Shown: positions 47,862-64,000 of the stretch, in pieces
Position numbering within the stretch: the first letter of the stretch is position 1
Layout of the letters: each line of letters starts with the position of its first letter
Origin: Microbulbifer sp. MI-G
Lineage (GTDB): Bacteria > Pseudomonadota > Gammaproteobacteria > Pseudomonadales > Cellvibrionaceae
DNA: 64,000 nucleotides
NCBI RefSeq assembly: GCF_030440425.1
Contig: NZ_CP098023.1
Span: 2,655,501-2,719,500 of the forward strand
Reading direction: 5' to 3'
Notes under the pieces: model-generated
Told to the model about the DNA's origin: nothing
The model's input: only the letters and a program-made list of their open reading frames with translations
The model's database searches: none
Position numbers and translations under genes: made by a program

Positions 47862-48558
47862 GCCCTTCACGTCGCCGTGCTTGTATTGCCCGCCTACGAA
47901 GTCGATTTCACATTTCTGAGCGTCGGGCGTGCCGTGTTTTGGGCCAGTATCGATCCACACAAAGGCGCCTGCCTGTTGGTCGTTCCGACGAAAACCGTTT
48001 GGTTGCTGACATGGTCGAGCTTGCGCGACAGTATGGTCGATACGGCTATCGCCGGATTGCAGTTTTACTGAGAGATGTGGGCTGACAAGTGAACAACAAG
48101 CGCGTGGAGCGACTGTGGCGGCGTGAGGGGCTGAAGGTTCCAATGAAACAACCAAAGAAGGGATAGCTCTGGCTAAATGACGGGTCGTGTGTTCGACTGC
48201 GTCCGGAGTATCCGCACCATGTCTGGTCGTATGACTTTGCTCACCATCGGACTAGCGATGGGAAAGCATTCCGAATGCTGAACATCCTGGACGAGTACAC
48301 CCGAGAATGCCTGGCAATCCGGGTGAAACGAAAGCTGAACTCAACGGAAGTGATTAATGTATTAACAGATCTGTTCATTTTACGCGGTGTTCCCGCCTAC
48401 ATCCGGTCAGACAATGGTCCGGAGTTTATTGCACAGGCGGTCAGGGACTGGATCACATTTGCTGGTGCAAAGGTGGCTTACATAGAGCCGGGTTCACCCT
48501 GGAAGAATGGGTACTGTGAAAGCTTCAACGCCCGGCTCAGAGACGAGCTTCTAAACGG
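47862..48558 (+). pseudogene. IS3-family OrfB, broken
   Basis: One frame carries SRRRACIARLRSRFHISERR, then a TGA after LLRDVG, then VNNKRVERLWRREGLKVPMK, a TAG, and the DDE core with YDFAHHRTSDGKAF, YIRSDNGPEFI and the WKNGYCESFNARLRDELLNG segment. Two stop codons and loss of the C-terminal 30-60 residues make it non-functional. Confidence 0.85.
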
Positions 48559-48844
48559 GTGTCGAAGCTGGTCTGTTCGCAGCGATAGCGCTGCGCATCC
48601 AGCGCGCTGGGGTATTTGGTCTGGCGGTCCTGGTCGCCGGGGAGTCGGTGATCGCCATCCCCACCAGGTAGGCCTCACCACTGCCGGCAAAATCCGGGTC
48701 GACCTCAATGGAGGAATACAGCTTCTGGCGCTTCTTGTTCATTTGCACCAGCTCTTTGGTGGGATCGATCTGTCCCAGCAGCGCCATTTTCTGTTCACCA
48801 TCGACGGTGAGTGCTTCCGCTTTTACCGCCAGGATACTCGATGG
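48559..48844 (-). pseudogene. P2-type phage capsid scaffolding protein (GpO) fragment
   Basis: The minus strand reads VKAEALTVDGEQKMALLGQI, then KELVQMNKKRQKLYSSIEVD and FAGSGEAYLVGMAITDSPA. As I recall P2 GpO, it has closely similar sequence (DDLIAMNKAAQKVYTSMEI and ANTGKCYLVGLAVTDDPAS). Frame is lost at about 48,635. The gene was probably interrupted by the IS to its left; the rest is gone. It adds to the Ogr remnants as evidence of a P2-like prophage. Confidence 0.65.
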
Positions 48845-49381
48845 TATCGAACCGCCGCTTTCACCACTTCTTGAACTCCCAGTTCCCGGCCCTCGAAAAC
48901 AGGGATAACTGGGCACCTAGAGTTGGCCAGCATCAAGCACCTCTCTTCCTGTCAAGAATTTTACATGTCAATTGACCATCCGGGGCCACCACTACAACGT
49001 CACCATCTACAGGGGGTAGAGATCAATCGACAATGAGCAAGTCATGGTCATGGATACCCACAACGAACTTCTGGTAAGATAAAATTTTGATATTGAGTTT
49101 CAATTGAATCGAATTGTTTATTTCATACTCTGTTTATAGTAGTACTTCGCTTGGTCTGTGAAAATGACAGGTTTGCCAGGTACCTGTTAAATAGATCAAT
49201 TTTGCTATCTGGCTAAAATCCTGTAATATCTCTCGCCGCACTGGCCCACAGGAATGTTACCTATTTGTCTACTGGTCATATTTCAATCAGTTAGCAAAAA
49301 TACAGATTATTTTGTTTGTCTGACTCATCGGTCTTCTGAGAATGTGTCGCTCTGTCACCAAAAGTAAAATCTTAAGAGTTC
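48845..49381. other. 537-bp stretch without a gene
   Basis: Low-complexity AT-rich sequence with no frame of interest on either strand. It could hold the promoter of the small secreted protein gene at 49,382. Confidence 0.4.
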
Positions 49382-51783: not shown

Positions 51784-52236
51784 CTATGGATAACCAGCAA
51801 GCAGGGAAATGAGCTCCTCCAGACTTGCATAAGATTCAAGCTTGTCATCGATAGACTTAAAATTCTCATTTTTAGGATCAAACCACTTGGGATTTTTTTT
51901 CATGAGCACAGAGAGCTGCTGCTTTACAGATTCAAAAGAGACTTTCTCGGGCTCAGATAATTCAAACTGAATATTGGTAGAAAGCTCCTCTTTTGGCCTC
52001 AAGAAAAAATCCAGTGCAACATCAATAATATTTTTGACTTGCACGTAAAAGCTATCACGCGCCTCATAACCCAAAACAGAAAATTTATGACCTTTCGAAT
52101 CAATAATTGTTAAGTCGTCAAAAAGTTTTTGCTCTACGCTTTTTCGCGTCCTTATGCACAAATCTTTTTCGGTGTTGAGTTGCCCCTGAATAAATTTCTT
52201 ATTAAATATCAAAACTGGATAGGTTAAGGATTGCAT
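51784..52236 (-). CDS. Probable immunity protein for the RHS tip toxin
   Basis: 150 residues, acidic, no signal or membrane segment, so cytoplasmic. The start MQSLTYPVLIFNKKF lies inside the end of rhs: the ATG at 52,236 overlaps the RHS stop by 13 bp, so it is translated in step with the toxin. It is AT-rich, unlike the GC-rich RHS core, which is normal for exchangeable toxin tips and their partners. I recognise no immunity family; the assignment rests on position, size and composition. Confidence 0.7.
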   Translation of the reverse strand: MQSLTYPVLIFNKKFIQGQLNTEKDLCIRTRKSVEQKLFDDLTIIDSKGHKFSVLGYEARDSFYVQVKNIIDVALDFFLRPKEELSTNIQFELSEPEKVSFESVKQQLSVLMKKNPKWFDPKNENFKSIDDKLESYASLEELISLLAGYP

Positions 52237-55200
52237 TCACAACCTCCACCCCCGCCTACTGAATTCCCAGCAACACCTCCTGCAATGCCCCCACCTACTT
52301 GCCCTTGCTTATACCAGCTTGGAGTTCCATACCACCACCGTTGGGCGGCATTGAACTTTGGCTGCCCTTGCCAGGAGCCATGAATTCTGCGGTGAATATT
52401 CTTTGGTAGCGGGTTTAAATTTAGAGGATGGTTTCTCCAACTAGGGCCTGTCCTGCCACCACGGCCAAATGCCCAGTGATGCGCTTCCCAGTCCCCTCGG
52501 GGTGCTGATCCATTTCGATTATGATACCTCCTGTATCTCCGTTGAACATTATTCCACCTTTTGCTTGATCTTGCCCACTTGGCTCCTGAAACGGAGTGTT
52601 TAAAGGCATTCGTTGTAGCAGCGCGCCCCAAGCTTCCTAACCCCCCGGTTACTGCGCCAAGTGCCGCTGAACCCGCAACCTGGCCCCAATTGACACAGTT
52701 CAGATTTCCACCGTTTTGGGCAAGCTGAAGTCCCAAATCAACAAGGCCACCAATAACGCCACCTAGAACCCCAAATTCGCCGGTAGGGTCTGTGTAAATT
52801 AATGGGTTGTTGTCAACGTAGGTGTATGTGTTCAAACCGTCATATAAACCCAGCGGATCACCTTGGATGAACCTGCCGATCATTGGTTCATAGTCACGGT
52901 AGTAATTGTAATAGTGTGGTGCTTCAGCAACTTTAATCTGTCCAGGAAAGCGCAGGTTCACTACCGTCTGATTGTTATCACCATCCGGATCAGTATCCGG
53001 CATTGACTGCCCAAAGGCATCGCTGTCCCAGCGCCAGACCACGGTTTCATTCTGGCTGGTGCCCACCCTTGGCGTGTACAAGTGGTCTGTATGCAGGTAA
53101 GTCAGAGCCGCACTCTGAACCTGCCCTCCAGTGTAAATAGCCTCTACCTGTGCAATGGGCATATTGTCCAGGTAAATATAGTCCACCCGATTCTGCACGG
53201 CACCAGCTGCGCTGAGGTGGGTTTCACTCAGGTACTGGCCGTTCAGATCGTAGTGCAGCAGATTGTCTTCCGTCTTGTCGGTGCGTACCCGCTGGCCGAT
53301 GGCATTGTAGTAGTAGGTACCCTTGAGTGTGCCGTTTTCGCTGTAGGTGTTGAGCCGGTTGGCGTGGTTGTAGGTGTACTGCCTGGCGCCATCATTGGTG
53401 CTGGTAGTATTGCCGGCGCTATCGGTGCTCCAGGCCTCACCACCCTTTTCGCTGAGGCGGTTCGAGTTGCTCTCGTAGCCATAAGCGATCACCTCACTGG
53501 TATTGTTTTTTGTGGTGGTCTGCTGGGTACGGTTGCCCAGCAGGTCGTAGGTAAAACGGTTTTGCCCTGCCACAGAGCTGTCATCGGTGAGGCGATAGAG
53601 CGTATCGTAGTCGTAGCTGCGGTTTTTTACCGCATCCAGACTGTCGGTGATGCCGGTGATATTGTCGACCGGATTGTAACTGTAGCTTTGCGACAGAAGA
53701 TCGCCCCCGCTGCCGGTGGCGCTCACCGATTGCAAACGGCCGTCCTGGTCGTAGCCGTAGTGTTGGGTAATGCCGTTGCCGTAGTCCATGGCGGCAACAC
53801 CACCGAAGGGCTGGTAACGCACATTGCTGACCAGGGTCTGGGCTTCCGCTTCGGCATTTTCCCGGGTGGTGACTGTGGCGATACGCCCCAGGGCATCGCG
53901 CTCATAGTGGACGACGCGCCCGGAAGGATAGGTGATTTCAATCACCCGCCCTTCGCTGTCGTAGCGGTAGCCGGTGCTGAAAGCCTGCCCGGCGATGGTG
54001 TCGTCCTGCCGAGTGATGCGACCCAGTACGTCATAGGTCAAACTGGTACTGCCGGCGTCATTGCTATAGCTGGTCAGGCGGCCGATGCCTTTGTTGCCGT
54101 CAACAGTGCTGTCGTAGCTAAAGTTGGCATTTTCGCCGGGGCTGCCTGGATAATGAATGCCGATAAGACGGTTGAGGGCATCGTAACTCCGCTGACTGAC
54201 AATACCGCGGGCATCGATGCTGGATATGCGGTTGCCGGCAGTATCATAGGTATAGCGGCTGGCGCCGCTGTCGGGGCTGACCAACTCCAGCAGGTTACCG
54301 GCCAGGTCGTATTGATAGCTGGTGCGGTTACCGCGAGGGTCGGTGACTTCCGTTACACGCTCCTCGGCGTCATAGGCAAATTGGGTACTGGCAGCCAGGT
54401 TGCCGCTGTCCTCAATACTCTGCACCAGGCGCCCGAGGCCGTCGTAGCGATGATCGGTATCATTATCCAGAGCGTCTTTGACTCCGGTCATGCGCCCAAG
54501 GCCGTCGTAACTGAACAGGGTGCGCTGCTGCTCGGCGCCGAGGGTCTGTTTGAGGCGGTTGAGGGCATCGAAGGTGCGGCTCAGGGTGCGGTTCAGCGCG
54601 CCCTGGCTGTCGAGCACGTCCTCTTTGCGGATATTGCCCTGGGAGTCGAGGGTATAGCGTATCCTGTTGCCCTCACCGTCCTCGATCCGGGTCAGGCGGT
54701 TGCGGGTGTCGTAAGTGAACTGGAGGCTATTGCCATCTGACTGGGTCACCTTGGTAACATTGCCGCGGTCATCGTATTCGTAGGCAGTGACGATATCGCC
54801 GTCGCTATCCTCTCCCCCGGCATGGATCACCTGCTCCTGCAACCAGCCGCGGGGGTGGTAGCGGTAACTGGTAGTTAAGCCGTTGGCATCGCGGGTGCTG
54901 GTGACACGGCCGGCGGCATCGTAGGCAAGGTATTCCAGGGTCTGGCCTAGGGCGTTGGCCAGGGTTTTCAGGTCGCCTTTGCGGTAGCAGTTGCCACCAC
55001 TGGTACAGCCGCTTTGATCGGTGGTGTCGTAATAGGTGTAGGTAACAATATCCTGCACGTCGGTGCGGGGGCCGTCGATCTGTTTCACCAGGGCGCTGTC
55101 GGGGCAGCCGGTTTCGCCGCTGCAGTAGGTATAGGTGGTGATGGCGTCGGTGTTGTCGTCCTGGCGCTGCCGCATACTGGCAATATGCACCGGGCGATTC

Positions 55201-56618
55201 TGTGCGTCGCGTACAAAGGTGTATTCGGTGTGGAACACCCGTTCGGGGGCCAGGCTTGAGACCCGTTCCATACTGGCCACGCGGCCGTGGTCGTAGGTCC
55301 AACGCTCGGTGATCACTTCACCGCTGGCGAGGGTGGTGCTGGCGCTGGTCTTCTGTGCCTGGCTGTTGTAGGTGTAATCGGTGGCGGTGAGCAGGGTTAA
55401 GTCATCGCCCTGCTTTTCCCAGTACTCGCTGCGAACCCGGTCCTTGCTGTCGTTGTAGATCTGGCGCAACTCGTTGCCGAGGGGGTCGATGCGTTTAGTG
55501 AGATAGCCCACCTCGTCAAATTCATAGGTGCTGTTGCGGGTGTCGAGCACTTCGCCACTGGCACTTTTCACCGTCTCGGTGATTTGGGTAATGCCGGTCT
55601 CCAGATATGCCAGCTCAATACTATTCTGCCCCTCCACCTGCTTTTTCACCCGGCCCTCATCGTCGTAGGTGTTGGTCACCCAGACAGCGCCGGCACCGCG
55701 CTGCAGGCCGGTGATGCGGTGGGCATCCGCGCTGTCTTCGTATTGAAAACTGTGCTGGTAGTTGTCCAGGCCCGCCACCTGTACCAGGTTGCCGCGGGTG
55801 GCGGTTTGCCATTGGTCGTGGTGGTAATCGATACGGCGGCCATCGCTGGCGATCACGTGGCTGAGGCGGCCGCTGTTGTCGTCGTAGAAGAAGTCGACTG
55901 CGGCACCGGTGGCGGCGCCGTCCGCACCCCGCTCTTCAATGCGGGTCAGGCGCGGCTGGTAGGCCACCACCATCGGCTTGCTGGGGTCGACACTGTTGGG
56001 GGAAGTGCCGATCAGCGGCAGGCGCCCGCGCTCGTCGTAACTTAGACGGTGGCTCTGGCCCTGTTGATTGATGATCGCCACCAGGCGCCCATCGGTGTCG
56101 AACTCGTCGCGCTTGCCGCTGGCATAAGTAAAGGTGTAGCTGCCGTCGCCGTGCTCCTCCAGGGTGCCCTGGGGGGCATCCCGCGGCGTGACATAGGCGC
56201 CGCCGGTAAACACAAAGGTATCGCGGCGGCCGCAGCCGGAGCGCAGCAGCACCGAGCCATCGGGATATTCAAACAGGCGGCGGTCGTGGTCGAAGGCCCA
56301 GCCGTAACCGAGAGCATTGTCGAACTGAGAATTGCTATCAAAGCGACGCAGCAGGCGGATGGGATAGTTGACCCCCACCTGCAGGTCGGTGTCGGCCAGG
56401 TAAAAGCCCCCATCGAACGTGCGGATGGGGTCGCCCACGGAACTGGTGCTGCTGTCACAGCAGGGGTTAGGGCTGCGCTCGCAGGGCGGCGGCTCCGGCG
56501 GCTCCGGCGGGTGGTCACCGGCCGAATCGCCACCAAAATCATGCGCCGTCGCGGCCTGCATCAATACAATCGCACAGAACCCGGCGAGCACTGTGCGCAC
56601 CTTTCCCCAACTGGTCAT
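52224..56618 (-). CDS. Exported RHS/YD-repeat polymorphic toxin
   Basis: 1,464 residues from ATG 56,618 (AAGGA upstream; the open frame goes 51 bp further without benefit). A signal peptide (MTSWGKVRTVLAGFCAIVLM ending AATAHDF) is followed by a Pro-rich Cys region, about 20 YD repeats (YDxxGR/L patterns such as YDGLGRLVQS, YDALNRLIGI), and the RHS core end YYRDYEPMIGRFIQGDPLGL at about residue 1,245. After DPTGEFG (about 1,283) the sequence changes: 181 residues with an Arg/Trp-rich block, EAHHWAF, NHPLNLNPLPKNIHRRIHG and a Gly-rich end. The two His, Asn and His-x3-His resemble an HNH/xHH nuclease. No VgrG or PAAR gene is in this window. Confidence 0.88.
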   Translation of the reverse strand: MTSWGKVRTVLAGFCAIVLMQAATAHDFGGDSAGDHPPEPPEPPPCERSPNPCCDSSTSSVGDPIRTFDGGFYLADTDLQVGVNYPIRLLRRFDSNSQFDNALGYGWAFDHDRRLFEYPDGSVLLRSGCGRRDTFVFTGGAYVTPRDAPQGTLEEHGDGSYTFTYASGKRDEFDTDGRLVAIINQQGQSHRLSYDERGRLPLIGTSPNSVDPSKPMVVAYQPRLTRIEERGADGAATGAAVDFFYDDNSGRLSHVIASDGRRIDYHHDQWQTATRGNLVQVAGLDNYQHSFQYEDSADAHRITGLQRGAGAVWVTNTYDDEGRVKKQVEGQNSIELAYLETGITQITETVKSASGEVLDTRNSTYEFDEVGYLTKRIDPLGNELRQIYNDSKDRVRSEYWEKQGDDLTLLTATDYTYNSQAQKTSASTTLASGEVITERWTYDHGRVASMERVSSLAPERVFHTEYTFVRDAQNRPVHIASMRQRQDDNTDAITTYTYCSGETGCPDSALVKQIDGPRTDVQDIVTYTYYDTTDQSGCTSGGNCYRKGDLKTLANALGQTLEYLAYDAAGRVTSTRDANGLTTSYRYHPRGWLQEQVIHAGGEDSDGDIVTAYEYDDRGNVTKVTQSDGNSLQFTYDTRNRLTRIEDGEGNRIRYTLDSQGNIRKEDVLDSQGALNRTLSRTFDALNRLKQTLGAEQQRTLFSYDGLGRMTGVKDALDNDTDHRYDGLGRLVQSIEDSGNLAASTQFAYDAEERVTEVTDPRGNRTSYQYDLAGNLLELVSPDSGASRYTYDTAGNRISSIDARGIVSQRSYDALNRLIGIHYPGSPGENANFSYDSTVDGNKGIGRLTSYSNDAGSTSLTYDVLGRITRQDDTIAGQAFSTGYRYDSEGRVIEITYPSGRVVHYERDALGRIATVTTRENAEAEAQTLVSNVRYQPFGGVAAMDYGNGITQHYGYDQDGRLQSVSATGSGGDLLSQSYSYNPVDNITGITDSLDAVKNRSYDYDTLYRLTDDSSVAGQNRFTYDLLGNRTQQTTTKNNTSEVIAYGYESNSNRLSEKGGEAWSTDSAGNTTSTNDGARQYTYNHANRLNTYSENGTLKGTYYYNAIGQRVRTDKTEDNLLHYDLNGQYLSETHLSAAGAVQNRVDYIYLDNMPIAQVEAIYTGGQVQSAALTYLHTDHLYTPRVGTSQNETVVWRWDSDAFGQSMPDTDPDGDNNQTVVNLRFPGQIKVAEAPHYYNYYRDYEPMIGRFIQGDPLGLYDGLNTYTYVDNNPLIYTDPTGEFGVLGGVIGGLVDLGLQLAQNGGNLNCVNWGQVAGSAALGAVTGGLGSLGRAATTNAFKHSVSGAKWARSSKRWNNVQRRYRRYHNRNGSAPRGDWEAHHWAFGRGGRTGPSWRNHPLNLNPLPKNIHRRIHGSWQGQPKFNAAQRWWYGTPSWYKQGQVGGGIAGGVAGNSVGGGGGCECNP

Positions 56619-56688
56619 GCTGTATTCCTTTTTTATTCCGCTATTACCGGGCGTGTCTGAATCGACCACGCTTGAAGGATGATTAAAT

Positions 56689-57111
56689 TCAGTTCTTGTC
56701 CAGTGCCCGGTACCGGGCGTAGGCCTGATCGGCCTCGTCCTGCCGGCCCAGCTGCTCGAAGGCCTGACCGCGGCGCAGGTGGATATCCGCCCGCTGCGGG
56801 GCCAGTGCCAGGGCCAGATCGTAGGCTTCCAGGGCCTCTGCCCACTGGCCCCAGGCCCGCCACAGACTCCCCATCAGCAACCAGCCCTCAATATTTTTGC
56901 GATCATGTTGCAATAAAAGATCGAGCTGCTGGTAGGCCCGCTCCAGTTTGCCCAGGCGGTAGTAGTGATCTCCCAGTGCCAGGAGCTGCCCGGCGCTGCG
57001 CGCGTGGAGACGAATGCGTTCGATCGCCTTGATACGCGCGTGGTAATTTTGCTCCGCCGCCTGTGCGGGCAGGCAGAGCAACAGGGCCAAAAACAGGACA
57101 AAGCGTTTCAT
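56689..57111 (-). CDS. Exported TPR-repeat protein
   Basis: 140 residues. The signal peptide MKRFVLFLALLLCLPAQAAE is cut near residue 18. Then come about three TPR units: LLALGDHYYRLGKLERAYQQ, then GWLLMGSLWRAWGQWAEALE and HLRRGQAFEQLGRQDEADQA. TPR proteins bind partner proteins, so it may hold or guide the RHS product in the periplasm. It lies 70 bp before rhs and 49 bp after the FlgD-Ig gene. ATG at 57,111 with AAGGA upstream. Confidence 0.85.
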   Translation of the reverse strand: MKRFVLFLALLLCLPAQAAEQNYHARIKAIERIRLHARSAGQLLALGDHYYRLGKLERAYQQLDLLLQHDRKNIEGWLLMGSLWRAWGQWAEALEAYDLALALAPQRADIHLRRGQAFEQLGRQDEADQAYARYRALDKN

Positions 57112-57160
57112 GGGAAAAATTCCTTTTTGTTGTCGGCTTGTTACCATTTCAGTGTCTGCA

Positions 57161-58276
57161 TCAGGGCTCGGACGCCGCCGGTGGCCGCTCTACCCAGAGC
57201 TTCAGGGTGGCGGTGCCGAAGTTGCCTTCGTAGCCGCGCACATTCACCGTGACAAAGTGTTCCCCTGCACTGACGCGGCGGCTGTCCCACTGCCAGGTCA
57301 TGGGCAGAAAACCCACCTCGTTTTCAAAGGCGAAAATGCCATCCACATAGAAAACCGGTTCAAAGCGCTGGGCCAGCAGGCGCGCGCGGTCTTTCTGTGC
57401 CACATGCAAACGCAGCGGCACGGTGCCGGACACCCGCCAGCGCCCTTCGCTGTCGCGCTCGGCGTCGATCCCCAGGCTCAGGTGTGTGGCAATATCGCCG
57501 CGGCGCTCCAGGGGCTGGTCGGCGTGGTGGTACATACGCTTGGTCCGCGGACCCGTTGTGTTTTTCTCACGGCGCTTTTCTGCGGGGAGATCCGCAAAGG
57601 CCACCCGCTGCGGCCGCTCGCCCACAAACAGGGTGTTCTGCGGCAGTGCATAGGCGGTGACCGCCAGATTCAGACGCGGGTGGGCATCGATCTTCAATAC
57701 CTGGGATTCGTCCCAGCCGTCCCAGGATTCCGCCTGGGCACCCCCCGGACGCGGGGCCCAGTCGAGCAGGGTGCGCAGCAGCGGGCCACCCGCTTTCAGA
57801 CCCAGGCGGATACTGACCCGCGCGGGCTGACTCAGGTGGTAGCGGATCCGGCCCGCATCCGTATCCCAGCGCACATCCGCCACTTCGACCCGTGCACCGC
57901 CGGTGAGATCGGTCAGGTCATGGGTAACACTGCGCTCATTATTTGTGGCGCTCAGGGTGTAGCTGTAGGCTTCCGCCGGCACCGGGTGCCCGTGCAGATC
58001 CAGGCCGTCCCAGCTCAGTTGCTGCACGCCGGCGGCGACTTCGCCGCCCTCCACCACCCGCACCAGGCGATCGCGGCCATCGTAGAGGGCCAGGGCAATC
58101 CGGGCCGGTTCATCCAGGACAAAACGGATCCGGGCGCGCTCGCCCCTGGCCGGTTCGAATACCTGCTTGTCCACGCTCACCTGGGTGATTGCCAGCGCCT
58201 GTACCCCGATGCTCAACAGCCCCGTGGCCAGTGTGGCTATGGCTGCCAGGGCCCGGCCCCAGTTCGATTTGTACAT
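57161..58276 (-). CDS. Exported FlgD-Ig-like protein
   Basis: 371 residues with a signal peptide (ALAAIATLATGLLSIGVQAL, cut near residue 28). An Ig-like fold of the FlgD_ig type is visible at about 30-115 (QLSWDGLDLHGHPVPAEAYS is the W-D-G-x-D/N-x-x-G hallmark) and probably again near 150-200 with ESWDGWDES. The rest is beta-rich. FlgD-Ig domains cap or sort surface structures; the same module is found at the C-terminus of the beta-helix protein upstream. Six bases separate it from the propeller gene, so the genes are co-transcribed. Confidence 0.75.
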   Translation of the reverse strand: MYKSNWGRALAAIATLATGLLSIGVQALAITQVSVDKQVFEPARGERARIRFVLDEPARIALALYDGRDRLVRVVEGGEVAAGVQQLSWDGLDLHGHPVPAEAYSYTLSATNNERSVTHDLTDLTGGARVEVADVRWDTDAGRIRYHLSQPARVSIRLGLKAGGPLLRTLLDWAPRPGGAQAESWDGWDESQVLKIDAHPRLNLAVTAYALPQNTLFVGERPQRVAFADLPAEKRREKNTTGPRTKRMYHHADQPLERRGDIATHLSLGIDAERDSEGRWRVSGTVPLRLHVAQKDRARLLAQRFEPVFYVDGIFAFENEVGFLPMTWQWDSRRVSAGEHFVTVNVRGYEGNFGTATLKLWVERPPAASEP

Positions 58277-58282
58277 ACTTTT

Positions 58283-59242
58283 TTACCTCCCTAGCCCGAG
58301 CGCCGCCGCTCCGTCCGCCTTTTCTCCATCCACTTGTTCTGCAGAGGATGCGGCCCCTGTATTGCCGTCGGTCGGCGCCCACACCGGTTGGCGTGCGCCC
58401 CCGGCACTGCGGGTCAGCGCCATTGCGGTTTTGCTGGCAAGATCGTACAGCCAGATATTCAGAGCACCGTCGCGGGTGGAGTGGAAAACCAGTTGATCCC
58501 CTCGGGGAGACCAGTTGGGGCGGGCATCCAGTGCCGGTCTCTGTGTCAGTCGCTCGCTGCGCCCGTCGGGGCGGCGCAGCCACAGTTCGTAATCGCCGGA
58601 GCGATTGCCGGAATAGGCGATGGCGCCATCCGGGCGCACCGCCAGATCGAAGTGATAGAGATCGCCCACGGTAAGCTGCTCGGTGGCGCGGGCGGCGACA
58701 TCCACTTTCCAGATATCGTGTACCTGGCCACCACTGCCGGAGAGGAAATACACCGCCGCACCATCCGGCGACCAGTTGGGCTCGTGCTGCAACCGCGGCA
58801 TCGCGGTGAGCTTGTCCAGTTTCTTACTGGCCAAGGTGTACCGATAAATATCGTTGTCATCGATACTGCTGGAGGTGCTAAGGGAAAAAGCCAGGCTGTC
58901 CCCGTTGGGGCTGATCACCGCATCCAGAATATTCGGCAGGGGCGCTGCAATCTGGGTCAGTGCCCGGCTGTGGCTGTCCAGCCGGTACAATTTGCCATCG
59001 TGCAGGTTCACCAGCAGATGGCGCCCATCCGGATACCAGGAGATGCGCGAGACATCGGCACCAAACCGGGTTAATTGCTCAAACTCCTCACCTGCGGTAT
59101 CGGTGCGCCACACTTCCCAGTAGCCGTCGGCCACACCTAGGTAGGCGATATCGTCTGCAGTGCCAAGCTGCGTGAGAAAGCCGAGGTAAAGCAGAGAAAC
59201 TAATCGAGTAACTGTTTTAAATGACATACAGTTTCTACCCAC
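58283..59242 (-). CDS. TolB-like (PD40) beta-propeller protein
   Basis: 319 residues, exported. The signal peptide FKTVTRLVSLLYLGFLTQLG is cut near GTADD. Six or so WD40-like/PD40 blades follow: SRISWYPDGRHLLVNL, DAVISPNGDSLAFSLS, EPNWSPDGAAVYFLSG, DLAVRPDGAIAYSGNR, RPNWSPRGDQLVFHST and QPVWAPTD. The fold is like the TolB C-terminal domain but without its N-terminal domain or Pal neighbours. It is a probable periplasmic binding platform. The start is either GTG directly after the upstream stop (TGAGTG) or ATG at 59,227. Confidence 0.85.
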   Translation of the reverse strand: MGRNCMSFKTVTRLVSLLYLGFLTQLGTADDIAYLGVADGYWEVWRTDTAGEEFEQLTRFGADVSRISWYPDGRHLLVNLHDGKLYRLDSHSRALTQIAAPLPNILDAVISPNGDSLAFSLSTSSSIDDNDIYRYTLASKKLDKLTAMPRLQHEPNWSPDGAAVYFLSGSGGQVHDIWKVDVAARATEQLTVGDLYHFDLAVRPDGAIAYSGNRSGDYELWLRRPDGRSERLTQRPALDARPNWSPRGDQLVFHSTRDGALNIWLYDLASKTAMALTRSAGGARQPVWAPTDGNTGAASSAEQVDGEKADGAAALGLGR

Positions 59243-62200
59243 TCAGCGATACAGATTCACAACACCGCGGTACAGGGTGCGCTCGCCGCTCTGCGGCGAA
59301 GTGGCCTGGATCGCAAAGGTGTACACCCCTTCCTCCCCCACCAGCACCGCGTTGGGATCGGACTCGTTGTAGCCGCGCCACGCCACTTCATGTAACAGGG
59401 CATTGCCCTCGGTATCCTGCGCGCGCATCAGCTCCTGATCCACCAGCACAATGGCCGAGGGGTGCTGGGGATCGACAATACCGGGGGGCAGCAAGCTGAA
59501 GGTGACGATGGCATCCGTGCTGACCTGGTAGGCCATGCGCGTCTGCTGCTCGTAACTGTGGCTGACGATATAGGGATCGGATTTGACTTCGATACTGGGG
59601 GCCTCTGCGGCACCGGTGATGCGCGGTGCAGTGCCTGCGAGATAGAGGGCAGTACTGCGCAGCGGCTTGGGTGCCGGATAGTAAATAGCAACCGGGGACT
59701 CAACAATACGGCCTTCCCGATCGCGCCCATCCCAATAGAGCCAGTGCTGGCCCTTGGAATAAAACACGTCTTCGAAGGCGTAGAAAGGGGGTTCGCCATT
59801 TGGAGTGACCCGCATACTCACCAGGCTCGGGCCCGCGACATTTACTGAGATTTTGTAAAACTCATTGGCGTAAGCGTTGTAATCGCGCGGTACAGAACCG
59901 GACACACTGCCCTGTCCCCCCGGTTGTGGCACCTCATAGACAAATTCATCGAGCCCATCATTGGCGCGCAGCACGACATGATAAAGCCCCTCTGCTTGCA
60001 GGGCATTCTGGTTATCGCGCCCATCCCACTGGATCGGATAGTCACCGGCTGTGGCATAGTTTTCCGCCACCTGATAAACCAGGCTCTCGTCGGCATCCCT
60101 GCGGATCTCGATGCTGACACTGGCAGCGCGGTTGACACGGAAACTGCCCAGGGCCCGCTCCCCTTCCAGGGGATAGAACTTTGCTATTGGCAGAGCCACA
60201 TCGGTGAGATATACCGCCGGCAGGCCGGGGGCGACTTCCAGGTAACCACTGAAATCCACTTGCGGGGAGGACGCTGAGGCCGTATAGATTTGCGATGTAA
60301 TGGTGGCTTCATCCACCGTACCCCACCAGTTACCGGTGATATCCAGGCTGGTGTTGGCGGGATCGCCAAAGTCCGTGGCATAGAAATCGTACTGGTTATT
60401 GCCGTAGAGGCTGTTGCCGGTTACCACCGGCTGGGGATTATTGGCAACACTGCCATCCCCTTTGACATAAATCCCATAATTGTTGAGGGTAATTTCGTTG
60501 CCACCGGTAATCAGGGGACTTCTGCCGGCACGCACATAAATGCCGTAAGTATTAAAACGGAACAGGGAGTTGCGCACCCTGCCCTGGCCACCGTTGAAGT
60601 CGAGGCCGTACTCAGCTCCCTCGATACGGGCATAGTCCAGATCAACACTGCCGCCGGCAATCACTTCAATGCCGTACCACTGCCCCGGGGCGGGAATGAT
60701 CGAGGGCGGGGCAAAGGCCACGCGGGATGTGGCGATACCCTGGGCGATCAGGGTACCGGCCACCTGTAGTTTCTGATTGGGGGCTGCTCTCAGGCTGGCA
60801 CCCGCTTCCAGAGTCAGGGTGACTCCGGGCTCTATCAACAGGCCACGCAGCATCAGATGATGGCCGGCGGGCAGGACAGTATCCTCCGCAATCGGTCCGG
60901 ATAAAGTGAGGCCGTCATAGGCTGGCTGGCCATTCAGGCCATCGAGATAGCTGCCATAGTTCACCAGCGGCAGACTTGGAGTATCAACCCTGTCGTAAAT
61001 GGAAGCGGTAATAATGGTCAGGTCAGTACTACCCCACCAGTTGCCGGTGGCATCCAGGGTGGTCTGTGCCGCATCCGCAAAATAGCGGGTGTAATAGCTG
61101 TAAGAACTGTTGTCGTAGAGACTGTTGCCGGTGACTACCGGTAGCGGGTTCTGCGCCGCATCGCTCCTGTGGCCCTCGGCGTAGATACCATAGGTATTCC
61201 CGGCAATCACATTGCCGCCGCTGATCTGCGGGGCACTGTTGCGATACACATAGATACCGCTTTGGCTGCCGCGAATGGTATTGCCGGCTATCTGCGGGGC
61301 TATCACCGCTTCTGTCGAAGCGGCCCGGGTATCGATACCGGTGTAGTTGTTCAGCAACTGTGAATGGCGCAGCGAACCATCGCCGCCATTAAAATAGATA
61401 CCCTTACTGGCACAGTGCACTTCGGCGTATGCGATGCTCGCCGTGGCCCCGGTAACAATTTCGATACCCGACCAGTCCTGCCGCTTGGTATTGATACCAT
61501 CACAGGCTTCTGCTGCCGGCTTGAAAATAATGGGCGAGGCCTCACTACCCGCTGCCGTCAGTGCACCTCTGACCAGTAACGGAAATTTGCCGGCAAACTG
61601 CAGCTCTGTGCCGGAACCAATGCCCAGGGTGGCACCCGCCGCAACTTCCACCCGGCCCAGCACCAAATAACTGCCTTCTGACAAGTCCGCATCTTCCTTG
61701 AAAGGACCCAACAGTATCTCTCCAACATAGGCCGGATCACCCTCGGCCCCATCCAGAAAGCTGCGGTAGTCCACGACCGGATAGGTGCCCTGGTTATCCG
61801 TCCAGTCGTAGATCTTCTGTGCAATCTGTCCCGCATCTGTGGTGCCCCACCAGTTGCCGGTGGCATCCAGGGTGGTCTGTGCCGCATCTGCAAAATACCG
61901 GGTGTAATAGCTGTAAGAACTGTTGTCGTAGAGACTGTTGCCGGTGACTACCGGTAGCGGGTTCTGCGTCGCATCGCTCCTGTGGCCCTCGGCGTAGATG
62001 CCATAGGTATTCCCGGCAATCACATTGCCGCCGCTGATCTGCGGGGCACTGTTGCGATACACATAGATACCGTTTTGGCTGCCGCGAATGGTATTGCCGG
62101 CTATCTGCGGGGCTATCACCGCTTCTATCGAAGCGGCCCGGGTATCGATACCAGTATAGTTGTTCAGTAACTGTGAATGGCGCAGCGAACCATCGCCGCC

Positions 62201-64000
62201 ATTAAAATAGATACCCTTACTGGCACAGTGCACTTCGGCGTATGCGATACTCGCCGTGGCCCCGGCAACAATTTCGATGCCCGACCAGTCCTGCCGCTTG
62301 GTATTGATACCATCACAGGCTTCTGCTGCCGGCTTGAAAATAATGGGCGAGGCCTCACTACCCGCTGCCGTCAGTGCACCTCTGACCAGTAACGGAAACT
62401 TGCCGGCAAACTGCAGCTCTGTGCCGGAACCAATGCCCAGGGTGGCACCCGCCGCAACTTCCACCCGGCCCAGCACCAAATAACTGCCTTCTGACAAGTC
62501 CGCATCTTCCGTGAAAGGACCCAACAGTATCTCTCCAACATAGGCCGGATCACCCTCGGCCCCATCCAGAAAGCTGCGGTAGTCCACAACCGGATAAGTG
62601 CCCTGGTTATCCGTCCAGTCGTAGATCTTCTGTGCAATCTGCCCCGCATCTGTGGTGCCCCACCAGTTGCCGGTGGCATCCAGGGTGGTCTGTGCCGCAT
62701 CTGCAAAATACCGGGTGTAATAGCTGTAAGAACTGTTGTCGTAGAGACTGTTGCCGGTGACTACCGGTAGCGGGTTCTGCGTCGCATCGCTCCTGTGGCC
62801 CTCGGCGTAGATGCCATAGGTATTCCCGGCAATCACATTGCCGCCGCTGATCTGCGGGGCACTGTTGCGATACACATAGATACCGTTTTGGCTGCCGCGA
62901 ATGGTATTGCCGGCTATCTGCGGGGCTATCACCGCTTCTATCGAAGCGGCCCGGGTATCGATACCGATATAGTTGTTCAGTAACTGTGAATGGCGCAGCG
63001 AACCATCGCCGCCATTAAAATAGATACCCTTACTGGCACAGTGCACTTCGGCGTATGCGATACTCGCCGTGGCCCCGGCAACAATTTCGATGCCCGACCA
63101 GTCCTGCCGCTTGGTATTGATACCATCACAGGCTTCTGCTGCCGGCTTGAAAATAATGGGCGAGGCCTCACTACCCGCTGCCGTCAGTGCACCTCTGACC
63201 AGTAACGGAAACTTGCCGGCAAACTGCAGCTCTGTGCCGGAACCAATGCCCAGGGTGGCACCCGCCGCAACTTCCACCCGGCCCAGCACCAAATAACTGC
63301 CTTCTGACAAGTCCGCATCTTCCGTGAAAGGACCCAACAGTATCTCTCCAACATAGGCCGGATCACCCTCGGCCCCATCCAGAAAGCTGCGGTAGTCCAC
63401 AACCGGATAAGTGCCCTGGTTATCCGTCCAGTCGTAGATCTTCTGTGCAATCTGCCCCGCATCTGTGGTGCCCCACCAGTTGCCGGTGGCATCCAGGGTG
63501 GTCTGTGCCGCATCCGCAAAATAGCGGGTGTAATAGCTGTAAGAACTGTTGTCGTAGAGACTGTTGCCGGTGACTACCGGTAGCGGGTTCTGCGTCGCAT
63601 CGCTCCTGTGACCCTCGGCGTAGATACCATAGGTGTTCCCGGCAATCACATTGCCGCCGCTGATCTGCGGGGCACTATTGCGATACACATAGATACCGCT
63701 TTGGCTGCCGCGAATGGTATTGCCGGCTATCTGCGGGGCTATCACCGCTTCTATCGAAGCGGCCCGGGTATCGATACCGGTATAGTTGTTCAGCAATTGT
63801 GAATTACGTACCGAACCATCGCCGCCATTAAAATAGATACCCTTACTGGCACAGTGCACTTCGGCGTATGCGATACTCACCGTGGCCCCGGCAACAATTT
63901 CGATACCCGACCAGTCCTGCCGCTTGGTATTGATACCATCACAGGCTTCTGCTGCCGGCTTGAAAATAATGGGCGAGGCCTCACTACCCGCTGCCGTCAG
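59243..64000 (-). CDS. Giant right-handed beta-helix protein with C-terminal FlgD-Ig-like domains (cut by window end)
   Basis: At least 1,585 residues; the frame is open to the window edge, so start and signal peptide are not visible. The upstream part is built of 271-residue units, each with parallel beta-helix motifs (EVHCASKGIYFNGGDGS, SGIYVYRNSAPQISGGNVIA, LDATGNWWG and TLGIGSGTELQFAGKFP). The GNWWG motif is typical of surface beta-helix proteins. Next comes a more diverged unit, then about 400 residues with FlgD-Ig-like WDGRDNQNALQAEGLYHVV and WDGRDREGRIVESPV, and a final beta domain. It is probably a surface filament or anchor. The gap to the propeller gene is zero bases. Confidence 0.88.
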   Translation of the reverse strand: MTAAGSEASPIIFKPAAEACDGINTKRQDWSGIEIVAGATVSIAYAEVHCASKGIYFNGGDGSVRNSQLLNNYTGIDTRAASIEAVIAPQIAGNTIRGSQSGIYVYRNSAPQISGGNVIAGNTYGIYAEGHRSDATQNPLPVVTGNSLYDNSSYSYYTRYFADAAQTTLDATGNWWGTTDAGQIAQKIYDWTDNQGTYPVVDYRSFLDGAEGDPAYVGEILLGPFTEDADLSEGSYLVLGRVEVAAGATLGIGSGTELQFAGKFPLLVRGALTAAGSEASPIIFKPAAEACDGINTKRQDWSGIEIVAGATASIAYAEVHCASKGIYFNGGDGSLRHSQLLNNYIGIDTRAASIEAVIAPQIAGNTIRGSQNGIYVYRNSAPQISGGNVIAGNTYGIYAEGHRSDATQNPLPVVTGNSLYDNSSYSYYTRYFADAAQTTLDATGNWWGTTDAGQIAQKIYDWTDNQGTYPVVDYRSFLDGAEGDPAYVGEILLGPFTEDADLSEGSYLVLGRVEVAAGATLGIGSGTELQFAGKFPLLVRGALTAAGSEASPIIFKPAAEACDGINTKRQDWSGIEIVAGATASIAYAEVHCASKGIYFNGGDGSLRHSQLLNNYTGIDTRAASIEAVIAPQIAGNTIRGSQNGIYVYRNSAPQISGGNVIAGNTYGIYAEGHRSDATQNPLPVVTGNSLYDNSSYSYYTRYFADAAQTTLDATGNWWGTTDAGQIAQKIYDWTDNQGTYPVVDYRSFLDGAEGDPAYVGEILLGPFKEDADLSEGSYLVLGRVEVAAGATLGIGSGTELQFAGKFPLLVRGALTAAGSEASPIIFKPAAEACDGINTKRQDWSGIEIVTGATASIAYAEVHCASKGIYFNGGDGSLRHSQLLNNYTGIDTRAASTEAVIAPQIAGNTIRGSQSGIYVYRNSAPQISGGNVIAGNTYGIYAEGHRSDAAQNPLPVVTGNSLYDNSSYSYYTRYFADAAQTTLDATGNWWGSTDLTIITASIYDRVDTPSLPLVNYGSYLDGLNGQPAYDGLTLSGPIAEDTVLPAGHHLMLRGLLIEPGVTLTLEAGASLRAAPNQKLQVAGTLIAQGIATSRVAFAPPSIIPAPGQWYGIEVIAGGSVDLDYARIEGAEYGLDFNGGQGRVRNSLFRFNTYGIYVRAGRSPLITGGNEITLNNYGIYVKGDGSVANNPQPVVTGNSLYGNNQYDFYATDFGDPANTSLDITGNWWGTVDEATITSQIYTASASSPQVDFSGYLEVAPGLPAVYLTDVALPIAKFYPLEGERALGSFRVNRAASVSIEIRRDADESLVYQVAENYATAGDYPIQWDGRDNQNALQAEGLYHVVLRANDGLDEFVYEVPQPGGQGSVSGSVPRDYNAYANEFYKISVNVAGPSLVSMRVTPNGEPPFYAFEDVFYSKGQHWLYWDGRDREGRIVESPVAIYYPAPKPLRSTALYLAGTAPRITGAAEAPSIEVKSDPYIVSHSYEQQTRMAYQVSTDAIVTFSLLPPGIVDPQHPSAIVLVDQELMRAQDTEGNALLHEVAWRGYNESDPNAVLVGEEGVYTFAIQATSPQSGERTLYRGVVNLYR
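61032..64000. repeat. 813-bp near-identical tandem repeats inside the beta-helix gene
   Basis: Identical landmarks (for example CCCCACCAGTTGCCGG) recur at 61,032, 61,845, 62,658 and 63,471, exactly 813 bp apart (271 codons, in frame). The copies differ at only a few positions each by eye. At least 3.6 copies are in the window and the array continues beyond it. A diverged, older copy lies at about 60,300-60,960. Confidence 0.95.

Follow-up and report, generated by a model that had tools for sequence, protein, structure and literature searches.

An eight-gene operon around an RHS toxin gene

At the right end of the window (the whole stretch of 64,000 nucleotides of Microbulbifer sp. MI-G that was analysed) lie six genes in a row on the minus strand. 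In the direction of transcription, they encode a giant beta-helix protein (in-window part 59243..64000, the N-terminus lying beyond the window), an exported PD40 beta-propeller protein, TolB-propeller-like by domain match (58283..59242), an exported FlgD-Ig protein of 371 amino acids, assigned from a domain match and a structure model (57161..58276), an exported TPR protein of 140 amino acids counted from the ATG at 57111 (56689..57111, in a reading frame open to 57147), an RHS toxin of 1481 amino acids counted from GTG, with a likely start at the ATG at 56618 (52224..56669), and an immunity candidate of 150 amino acids from the ORF list, whose gene has 13 bases in common with the end of the RHS gene (51784..52236). 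The gaps between these genes are 0, 6, 49, 70 and -13 bases, as an earlier note on this DNA had given them, if the internal ATG starts of the TPR gene (57111) and the RHS gene (56618) are used.

The six-gene row described in that note is genuine and correctly placed, but it is incomplete. Extension of the contig to the right, which the note had proposed, revealed the start of the beta-helix gene and two more genes on the same strand. According to the ORF list right of the window, the whole beta-helix gene encodes 2414 amino acids (L009:7744-14988, window-equivalent 59243-66487, minus strand). Upstream of it, outside the window and also on the minus strand, are the genes for a heme-type membrane protein with four conserved histidines (L009:15138-15896, window-equivalent 66637-67395) and a ChrB_C-rhodanese protein (L009:15850-16827, window-equivalent 67349-68326). 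The operon is made up of eight co-directional genes, two of which precede the beta-helix gene, and the comparison of loci indicates that these two belong to the conserved set. Domain searches of the operon's proteins revealed no VgrG, PAAR or Eag partner and, with Pfam and NCBIfam, no TcA/TcB partner domains of a Tc/ABC toxin.

The RHS protein, its variable tip and the immunity candidate

Profile searches assigned DUF6531, RHS repeats and an Rhs core to the RHS protein. Its N-terminal part carries an export signal, a mature N-terminus HDFGG and a Pro-rich linker with C-x6-CC, and the predicted mature N-terminal motif together with the cysteine linker marks these RHS proteins. The linker cysteine is present in all 14 RHS proteins inspected, and among 72,556 plasmid records the N-terminal match extended over the motif only in the two records with FlgD-Ig.

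Sequence comparison placed the variable C-terminal tip at 52224..52778 on the minus strand, after DPLGL...DPTG. We take the DPxG pair to be the RHS cleavage motif; the first DPxG is found in all ten loci compared and the second in seven of them. The RHS proteins of the window and of locus L035 are 86-100% identical in each 50-residue block from residue 101 to 1250, and beyond residue 1250 the identity of successive 50-residue blocks falls to 60, 30, 14, 12 and 0%. At E 0.01, only one of the 45 tip pairs from the ten loci is similar, and weakly so, and none of the 45 pairs of immunity candidates is; the window's own candidate is unrelated at this threshold to those of the nine other loci and has no match in Pfam, NCBIfam or PADLOC. 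A small gene, the candidate immunity gene, follows the RHS gene in all ten loci. Outside the ten-locus comparison, G189 and G1037 share an identical tip end and near-identical immunity genes, and the tip of P0213 equals that of the window at 99%. The window's tip type is also found on RHS proteins with different N-termini. Because the RHS cores are alike while the tips and immunity candidates diverge, the protein may be regarded as a polymorphic toxin, and the locus is apparently a variant of the Sec-dependent RHS polymorphic toxins.

The last 180 residues of the RHS protein gave no Pfam match. The tip contains the HNH-like residues EAHHW...HRRIH and ends in CECNP, and AHH and HxxxH are kept in four aligned tips, two of which are 99% alike. 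Tox-GHH2-like HNH/EndoVII motifs are given as s[AGP]HH and HxxxH in the available part of a survey of polymorphic toxins (PMC3482391), whereas the residue preceding AHH in the aligned tips is E or D, not a small one. The tip is probably an HNH-type nuclease. These features also bear on another explanation, that the RHS and beta-helix proteins form an adhesive layer of the surface or matrix and that the RHS tip is no toxin. Several exported proteins of the operon are indeed beta-rich, and a connection of RHS/YD proteins with pili and motility has been described, as far as the available text goes (PMC3818213). However, the tips vary by locus, each with its own small gene after it, the L035 operon is followed downstream by RHS fragments bearing other tips, and the window's tip has the HNH-like residues. 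We consider an adhesive layer quite improbable.

Recurrence of the gene set

The same gene order was sought in relatives, and the neighbourhood proved to be conserved. The FlgD-Ig marker was found in 7 of 293 genomes of the order and the rhodanese marker in exactly those seven; in the genus, each was found in 5 of 48 genomes, and the two sets of five are identical. With at most five candidates scored per genome, the two markers are together in 4 of 369 genomes of the class, and a survey of a phylum sample gave 3 of 398 genomes, all of them known before. The hypergeometric chance of such co-occurrence is 3e-14 (order), 6e-7 (genus) and 2e-8 (class), by a formula that assumes independent draws, which genomes are not. 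Six of the seven order genomes had gone into A2, and its re-finding of those six is by construction. G1021 is Microbulbifer litoralis (L034; 13,788 of 13,788 bases identical) and was counted once, and L033 is the same contig as G015:C55. In the class survey, G525 and G438, two of the six rhodanese hits, matched in the rhodanese part only (E about 1e-16) and were not counted.

The gene order is kept across several gammaproteobacterial orders in two forms, a beta-helix form and a PKD/FlgD-Ig form, the latter having no beta-helix. The repetition of the gene order goes beyond chance, and the co-occurrence in the order and genus samples led us to reject chance neighbours. The helpers are not a set that always occurs without rhs, an outcome the earlier note had raised against its own idea: RHS adjoins them in 11 of the 12 distinct genomes with both markers, and the twelfth is fragmented. 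The clear exception is G585, where FlgD-Ig is the only marker and no RHS was seen in 28 kb. In G476, the rhodanese pair is on one contig and beta-helix-PD40-FlgD-Ig on another (4.7 and 4.4 kb); a gene on the opposite strand follows the pair, and no RHS was seen on these short contigs. G498, below the rhodanese threshold of the class survey, carries FlgD-Ig and PD40 on a contig of 4776 bases, where tblastn also detects part of the rhodanese gene; the contig stops short of any RHS gene.

Exported helpers

By a crude hydrophobicity score, all five genes before the immunity candidate begin with a hydrophobic export signal. The earlier note had read signal peptides on the four N-termini visible to it, and the beta-helix N-terminus is of the same kind. 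In nine loci taken together, the hydrophobicity is at least 1.9 for 43 of 45 exported-gene rows, against a background of 10 of the 28 ORFs of at least 200 amino acids in window positions 1-47000. The two rows below this value belong to the beta-helix of L034, which is cut off by the contig end, and to the PD40 protein of G284, which scores 1.89. The FlgD-Ig modules noticed earlier in two proteins were both recovered, one in the 371-residue protein and one near the C-terminus of the giant protein, which also has a Beta_helix match and six copies of an 813-base unit. The model of the FlgD-Ig protein (mean pLDDT 94) shows a helix at the N-terminus and, after it, Ig-like domains rich in beta structure. 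In 12 regions of 20 kb that hold further RHS loci of this genome, nothing matched any of the helpers at E 1e-4; the first look for RHS loci scored 150 of 197 candidates and may therefore have missed some.

The rhodanese and membrane-protein pair

Cys148 and Cys257 are invariant in ten rhodanese rows, and four histidines in nine rows of the membrane protein. The latter weakly resembles ferric reductase/MsrQ in sequence: Ferric_reduct matches three of nine members, the MsrQ model matches one (E 8e-4, 18.9 bits against a cut-off of 130), and all these family matches are weak. Among the neighbours in the loci listed, no MsrP was noticed. At the Photobacterium locus, the rhodanese protein lacks the ChrB_C part. 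The Thiodictyon plasmid locus is without rhodanese domain and membrane protein; it encodes a protein with ChrB_C alone and an ABC transporter whose annotation is iron type. Since its RHS protein keeps the linker cysteines without the redox pair, the cysteine and a relay are not strictly tied.

The two genes might be a metal/redox stress pair that merely adjoins the toxin operon. ChrB_C is named after chromate resistance, the Thiodictyon transporter is annotated as of the iron type, and the rhodanese/membrane pair is divergently transcribed in G189 and G1037. On the other hand, the pair occurs in the same genomes as FlgD-Ig in the order and genus samples, and it stays adjacent to the operon in different orders and in either operon form. 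A mere stress pair seems unlikely to us.

Delivery route

The earlier note had proposed a Sec-dependent RHS helper operon without a VgrG/PAAR/Eag partner, and our analysis supports this and shows that the operon is conserved. A type VI cluster beyond position 64,000 was also sought; none lies in the 20.5 kb to the right, and the only VipB genes found in this genome lie at C1:205-220 kb, at a distance of some 2 Mb or more. VipB is present in five of nine carriers, including the genome of the window; of the four carriers without it, three have a listed completeness of 100% and the fourth of 88%. The best solved-structure sequence matches of the RHS protein include type VI Rhs effectors such as Tse5, and these matches and the VipB genes in the same genome would suit a type VI effector cluster with unusual neighbours. 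However, the RHS protein begins with an export signal and did not match PAAR at E 0.1, VipB is absent near the operon, and four of nine carriers are without it. Type VI delivery is unlikely on these grounds, and we give such an effector cluster very little credence.

The type II secretin (GspD) scored over the cut-off in all nine carriers, which shows only that this route is available. Bcn-A, an RHS bacteriocin of Xanthomonas perforans, lost its activity in a type II secretion mutant, and the activity in the supernatant needed helper ORFs and the secretin, according to the part of the report available (PMC7259588). The operon could encode a freely secreted bacteriocin of this kind, with the helpers as periplasmic folding or maturation factors, no surface display and the beta-helix protein as a separate adhesin. 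The secretin in the nine carriers and the lack of a beta-helix in the PKD form are consistent with this. However, the Bcn-A helper ORFs (124, 100 and 290 amino acids), compared by their description in that partial text, differ in number and size, and a large exported protein with FlgD_ig is kept in both operon forms, as if a scaffold were needed. We regard a freely secreted bacteriocin as rather doubtful.

Proposed system and its relation to known toxins

What is established, at the level of sequence, is an eight-gene conserved set, export signals on the toxin and helpers, and a conserved RHS core followed by variable tips and immunity genes. With moderate confidence, we propose an accessory polymorphic-toxin system of Gammaproteobacteria, in which an RHS shell toxin and its immunity gene are accompanied by fixed exported helpers. 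The RHS protein would enter the periplasm via Sec, where its mature N-terminal motif and cysteine linker may dock it to the Ig, propeller and TPR helpers. It would then either cross the outer membrane via the type II system or stay on the cell surface, carried by the giant beta-helix protein or its PKD/FlgD-Ig counterpart; once cleaved off within the shell, the tip would enter a neighbouring cell without the immunity protein. Least certain, the rhodanese and the four-histidine membrane protein might form a quinol-to-periplasm thiol/persulfide relay that maintains the proper state of cysteines in the exported components. More tentatively, and rather improbably in our estimate, this may be a distinct RHS delivery pathway, in which a periplasmic rhodanese and a heme membrane protein supplied by quinol control whether cysteine in the N-terminal linker is in the persulfide or thiol state; through this linker, the Ig/propeller/TPR helpers would dock the Sec-exported shell on a giant beta-helix or PKD/Ig surface scaffold, to be released on contact. 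The core idea of the earlier note holds, and we infer the export route, the surface display and the redox role; the single surface assembly and the dedicated export system that it suggested are putative. Absent from it were the rhodanese/heme-type pair, the PKD/FlgD-Ig form, the tip polymorphism and a possible type II crossing of the outer membrane.

RHS toxins that carry just an ordinary signal peptide are already known from Gram-negative bacteria. The likeness to MsrPQ, an MsrQ/ferric-reductase-type membrane heme protein with a periplasmic redox partner, is an analogy with a weak family match, and the partner here is ChrB_C-rhodanese, not MsrP. The type VI Rhs effectors (Tse5, Tre23 and Tse15) share the RHS shell and Rhs core but differ in the points given above. 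The Bcn-A locus also has an RHS toxin with its own immunity gene (a candidate here), whereas the available description, by which we set it apart, mentions neither a beta-helix, FlgD-Ig or TPR protein nor a rhodanese or heme protein (PMC7259588). The Sec/T2SS class of polymorphic toxins likewise combines a signal peptide, RHS repeats, a variable C-terminal toxin and an immunity gene (again a candidate here), but Table 1 in the part of the survey available lists no signature neighbour genes, in contrast to the fixed set here (PMC3482391). Bacterial teneurin-like proteins have a YD shell, a variable C-terminal toxin and, in Gram-negatives, Sec targeting, and in the available text their authors see no obvious delivery machinery (PMC13018210); for the NHL and FN-plug domains of that description, the window's RHS protein gave no Pfam match. 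In the open literature searched, we found no description of an operon of this kind and no redox pair tied to an RHS toxin.

Finally, the operon, with the redox protein pair as its unexpected part, may represent a delivery mode for RHS toxins that is new. With the conserved helper set, the question of how signal-peptide RHS toxins are handled after Sec can be addressed one gene at a time in marine bacteria from the environment.

Results

All six minus-strand genes of which the earlier note had composed the operon were found in the window (C1:2655501-2719500 of the 4.48-Mb genome), with the spacing it reported: immunity candidate (51784-52236), RHS toxin (52224-56669), TPR protein (56689-57147), FlgD-Ig protein (57161-58276), PD40 protein (58283-59242) and the beta-helix gene, which continues past the right edge. 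With the sequence extended rightward, the beta-helix gene is complete, and its product has 2414 aa and an export signal. An 813-base unit occurs six times in the gene, 300-base stretches of the copies being 96-97% identical to a reference copy, and these repeats are probably the reason why the contigs of relatives break at this gene. To the left of the operon, an ORF at 48275-48874 resembles an integrase-core transposase by eye, a possible trace of past insertion. To the right lie an M4-like peptidase (L009:17454-18962) and, beyond it, giant OmpA/DUF11-like repeat proteins (L010:2936-13990), all identified by eye. A single interrupted gene may account for two long frames that overlap on one strand of the latter locus.

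The gene set occurs in two forms. Form A runs rhodanese, membrane protein, giant beta-helix, PD40, FlgD-Ig, TPR, RHS and immunity candidate; it lies on a single contig in our genome, G254 and G371 and over two contigs each in G015 and G1021, while in G189 and G1037 the rhodanese and membrane protein genes are divergent. Form B (genomes G265, G284, G019 and G339) runs rhodanese, membrane protein, PD40, FlgD-Ig, an 846-864-aa protein, a small exported protein, RHS and immunity candidate; the 864-aa member of G265, the one searched with Pfam, carries PKD, DUF11-like and three FlgD_ig stretches. In Photobacterium, a form B locus, the large protein has 694 aa and the rhodanese ORF lacks ChrB_C. The Thiodictyon plasmid pTs485 carries what looks like form B after rearrangement: a protein annotated as PKD, a gene taken for the small one from its position, RHS and another small gene; after insertion sequences come FlgD-Ig, PD40, an ABC transporter and a protein with ChrB_C only. 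The transporter, annotated as iron-type, consists of solute-binding protein, permease and ATPase (L086:15999-19814, between the PD40 and ChrB_C genes). These two cases suggest that the rhodanese and the membrane protein act as a pair, since they remain linked to each other and ChrB_C can be separate.

The FlgD-Ig protein and a rhodanese alignment (A2) served as markers of conservation. Each matched 7 of 293 genomes of the order, the identical seven, and 5 of 48 of the genus, again the same five. In the class sample each matched 6 of 369, two of the rhodanese matches covering only the rhodanese part, and four genomes had both. Pooling the three samples gave 12 distinct two-marker genomes, and an RHS gene adjoins helpers in 11 of them (our own, G015, G189, G1037, G1021 or M. 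litoralis, G254, G265, G284, G019, G371 and G339), though it is broken in G1037. On the short contigs of G476 no RHS was seen, and the gene after its rhodanese pair lies on the opposite strand. Contrary to the pattern, G585 has FlgD-Ig without the rest of the set across 28 kb; a 4.8-kb piece of G498 bears FlgD-Ig and PD40 together with a fragment of the rhodanese gene. RHS is present, too, at two loci from the plasmid collection, those of Photobacterium sp. GJ3 and Candidatus Thiodictyon syntrophicum. Equal contig sizes in two protein listings suggest that five FlgD-Ig and rhodanese matches share a contig (28 and 42 entries of at least 10 kb compared, the rhodanese side from 120 listed of 269 matches). 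Since the set is rare in the genus yet spread across orders, horizontal transfer would fit. A second FlgD-Ig copy in G1037 (C1:585578-586662), split over two frames, may be left over from an additional system of this kind.

The RHS core is nearest to solved type VI shells such as Tse5. By a crude score, toxin and helpers carry export signals. A type II secretin scored above the cut-off in all nine carriers examined and the type VI marker VipB was found in five; three of the four without it are listed as 100% complete and one as 88%. None of 12 other RHS regions fetched from the genome of the window has any helper. Elsewhere in this genome (L014, G000:C1:201117-220222), a 1034-aa RHS ORF within a few kb of the VipB genes may be the effector of that system, unlike the RHS of the operon. 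At L017 (G000:C1:964120-972853), two RHS gene pairs lie in tandem at a distance of about 7.9 kb; their N-terminal ORFs look alike at the compared ends and their C-terminal ends are different, as after a recent duplication.

Past the presumed cleavage site, RHS proteins of form A start with an HDFGG-like motif and those of form B with a YHFPWDQGHD-like motif, and the linker behind it has one to three cysteines in all 14 proteins inspected. The form B N-terminal stretch gave ten matches among 72,556 plasmid records; the match spans the motif only in the records of Photobacterium and Thiodictyon, which are also the two with FlgD-Ig, and in the other eight it begins at query residue 38 or later. 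Judging from these sequences, the motif may be an address for the helpers.

The RHS of the window and that of G015 (L035) are 86-100% identical per 50-residue block over residues 101-1250, after which the blocks drop to 60, 30, 14, 12 and 0%. G265 and G284 break similarly near residue 950-1050, and the M. litoralis RHS (L034) declines more slowly from about residue 850. Among ten loci, no pair of immunity candidates is similar at E 0.01 and 1 of 45 pairs of tips is, weakly (E 0.01); outside this set close relatives have tips in common (G189 and G1037; our genome and P0213). The tip of the window, which has no Pfam match, is also borne by RHS proteins whose N-termini are different (P0214 and P0215, 54-55% identity), and its conserved [ED]AHHW and HxxxH residues are near the Tox-GHH2 motif as tabulated in a part of PMC3482391. 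The region downstream of the operon in G015 (L035:9204-19815) holds small genes and pieces of RHS that end in different tips, with unrelated genes among them; these resemble silent toxin cassettes.

Discussion

We propose that Sec would carry the shell toxin and its helpers out and that the N-terminal motif would dock the RHS, which would then pass the type II system or be displayed on the large FlgD-Ig-bearing scaffold. The tip would be released into a neighbouring cell, and the rhodanese and membrane protein, as a redox pair, may look after thiols. A strict tie between this pair and the linker cysteines is argued against by Thiodictyon, whose RHS keeps the cysteines although the locus has neither rhodanese domain nor membrane protein. 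For RHS killing that depends on the type II system and involves helper ORFs, Bcn-A of Xanthomonas perforans (PMC7259588) is a precedent from experiment. In the open papers searched, nothing describing this set of genes turned up. RHS toxins with signal peptides are a known kind, and what is possibly new here is the delivery pathway.
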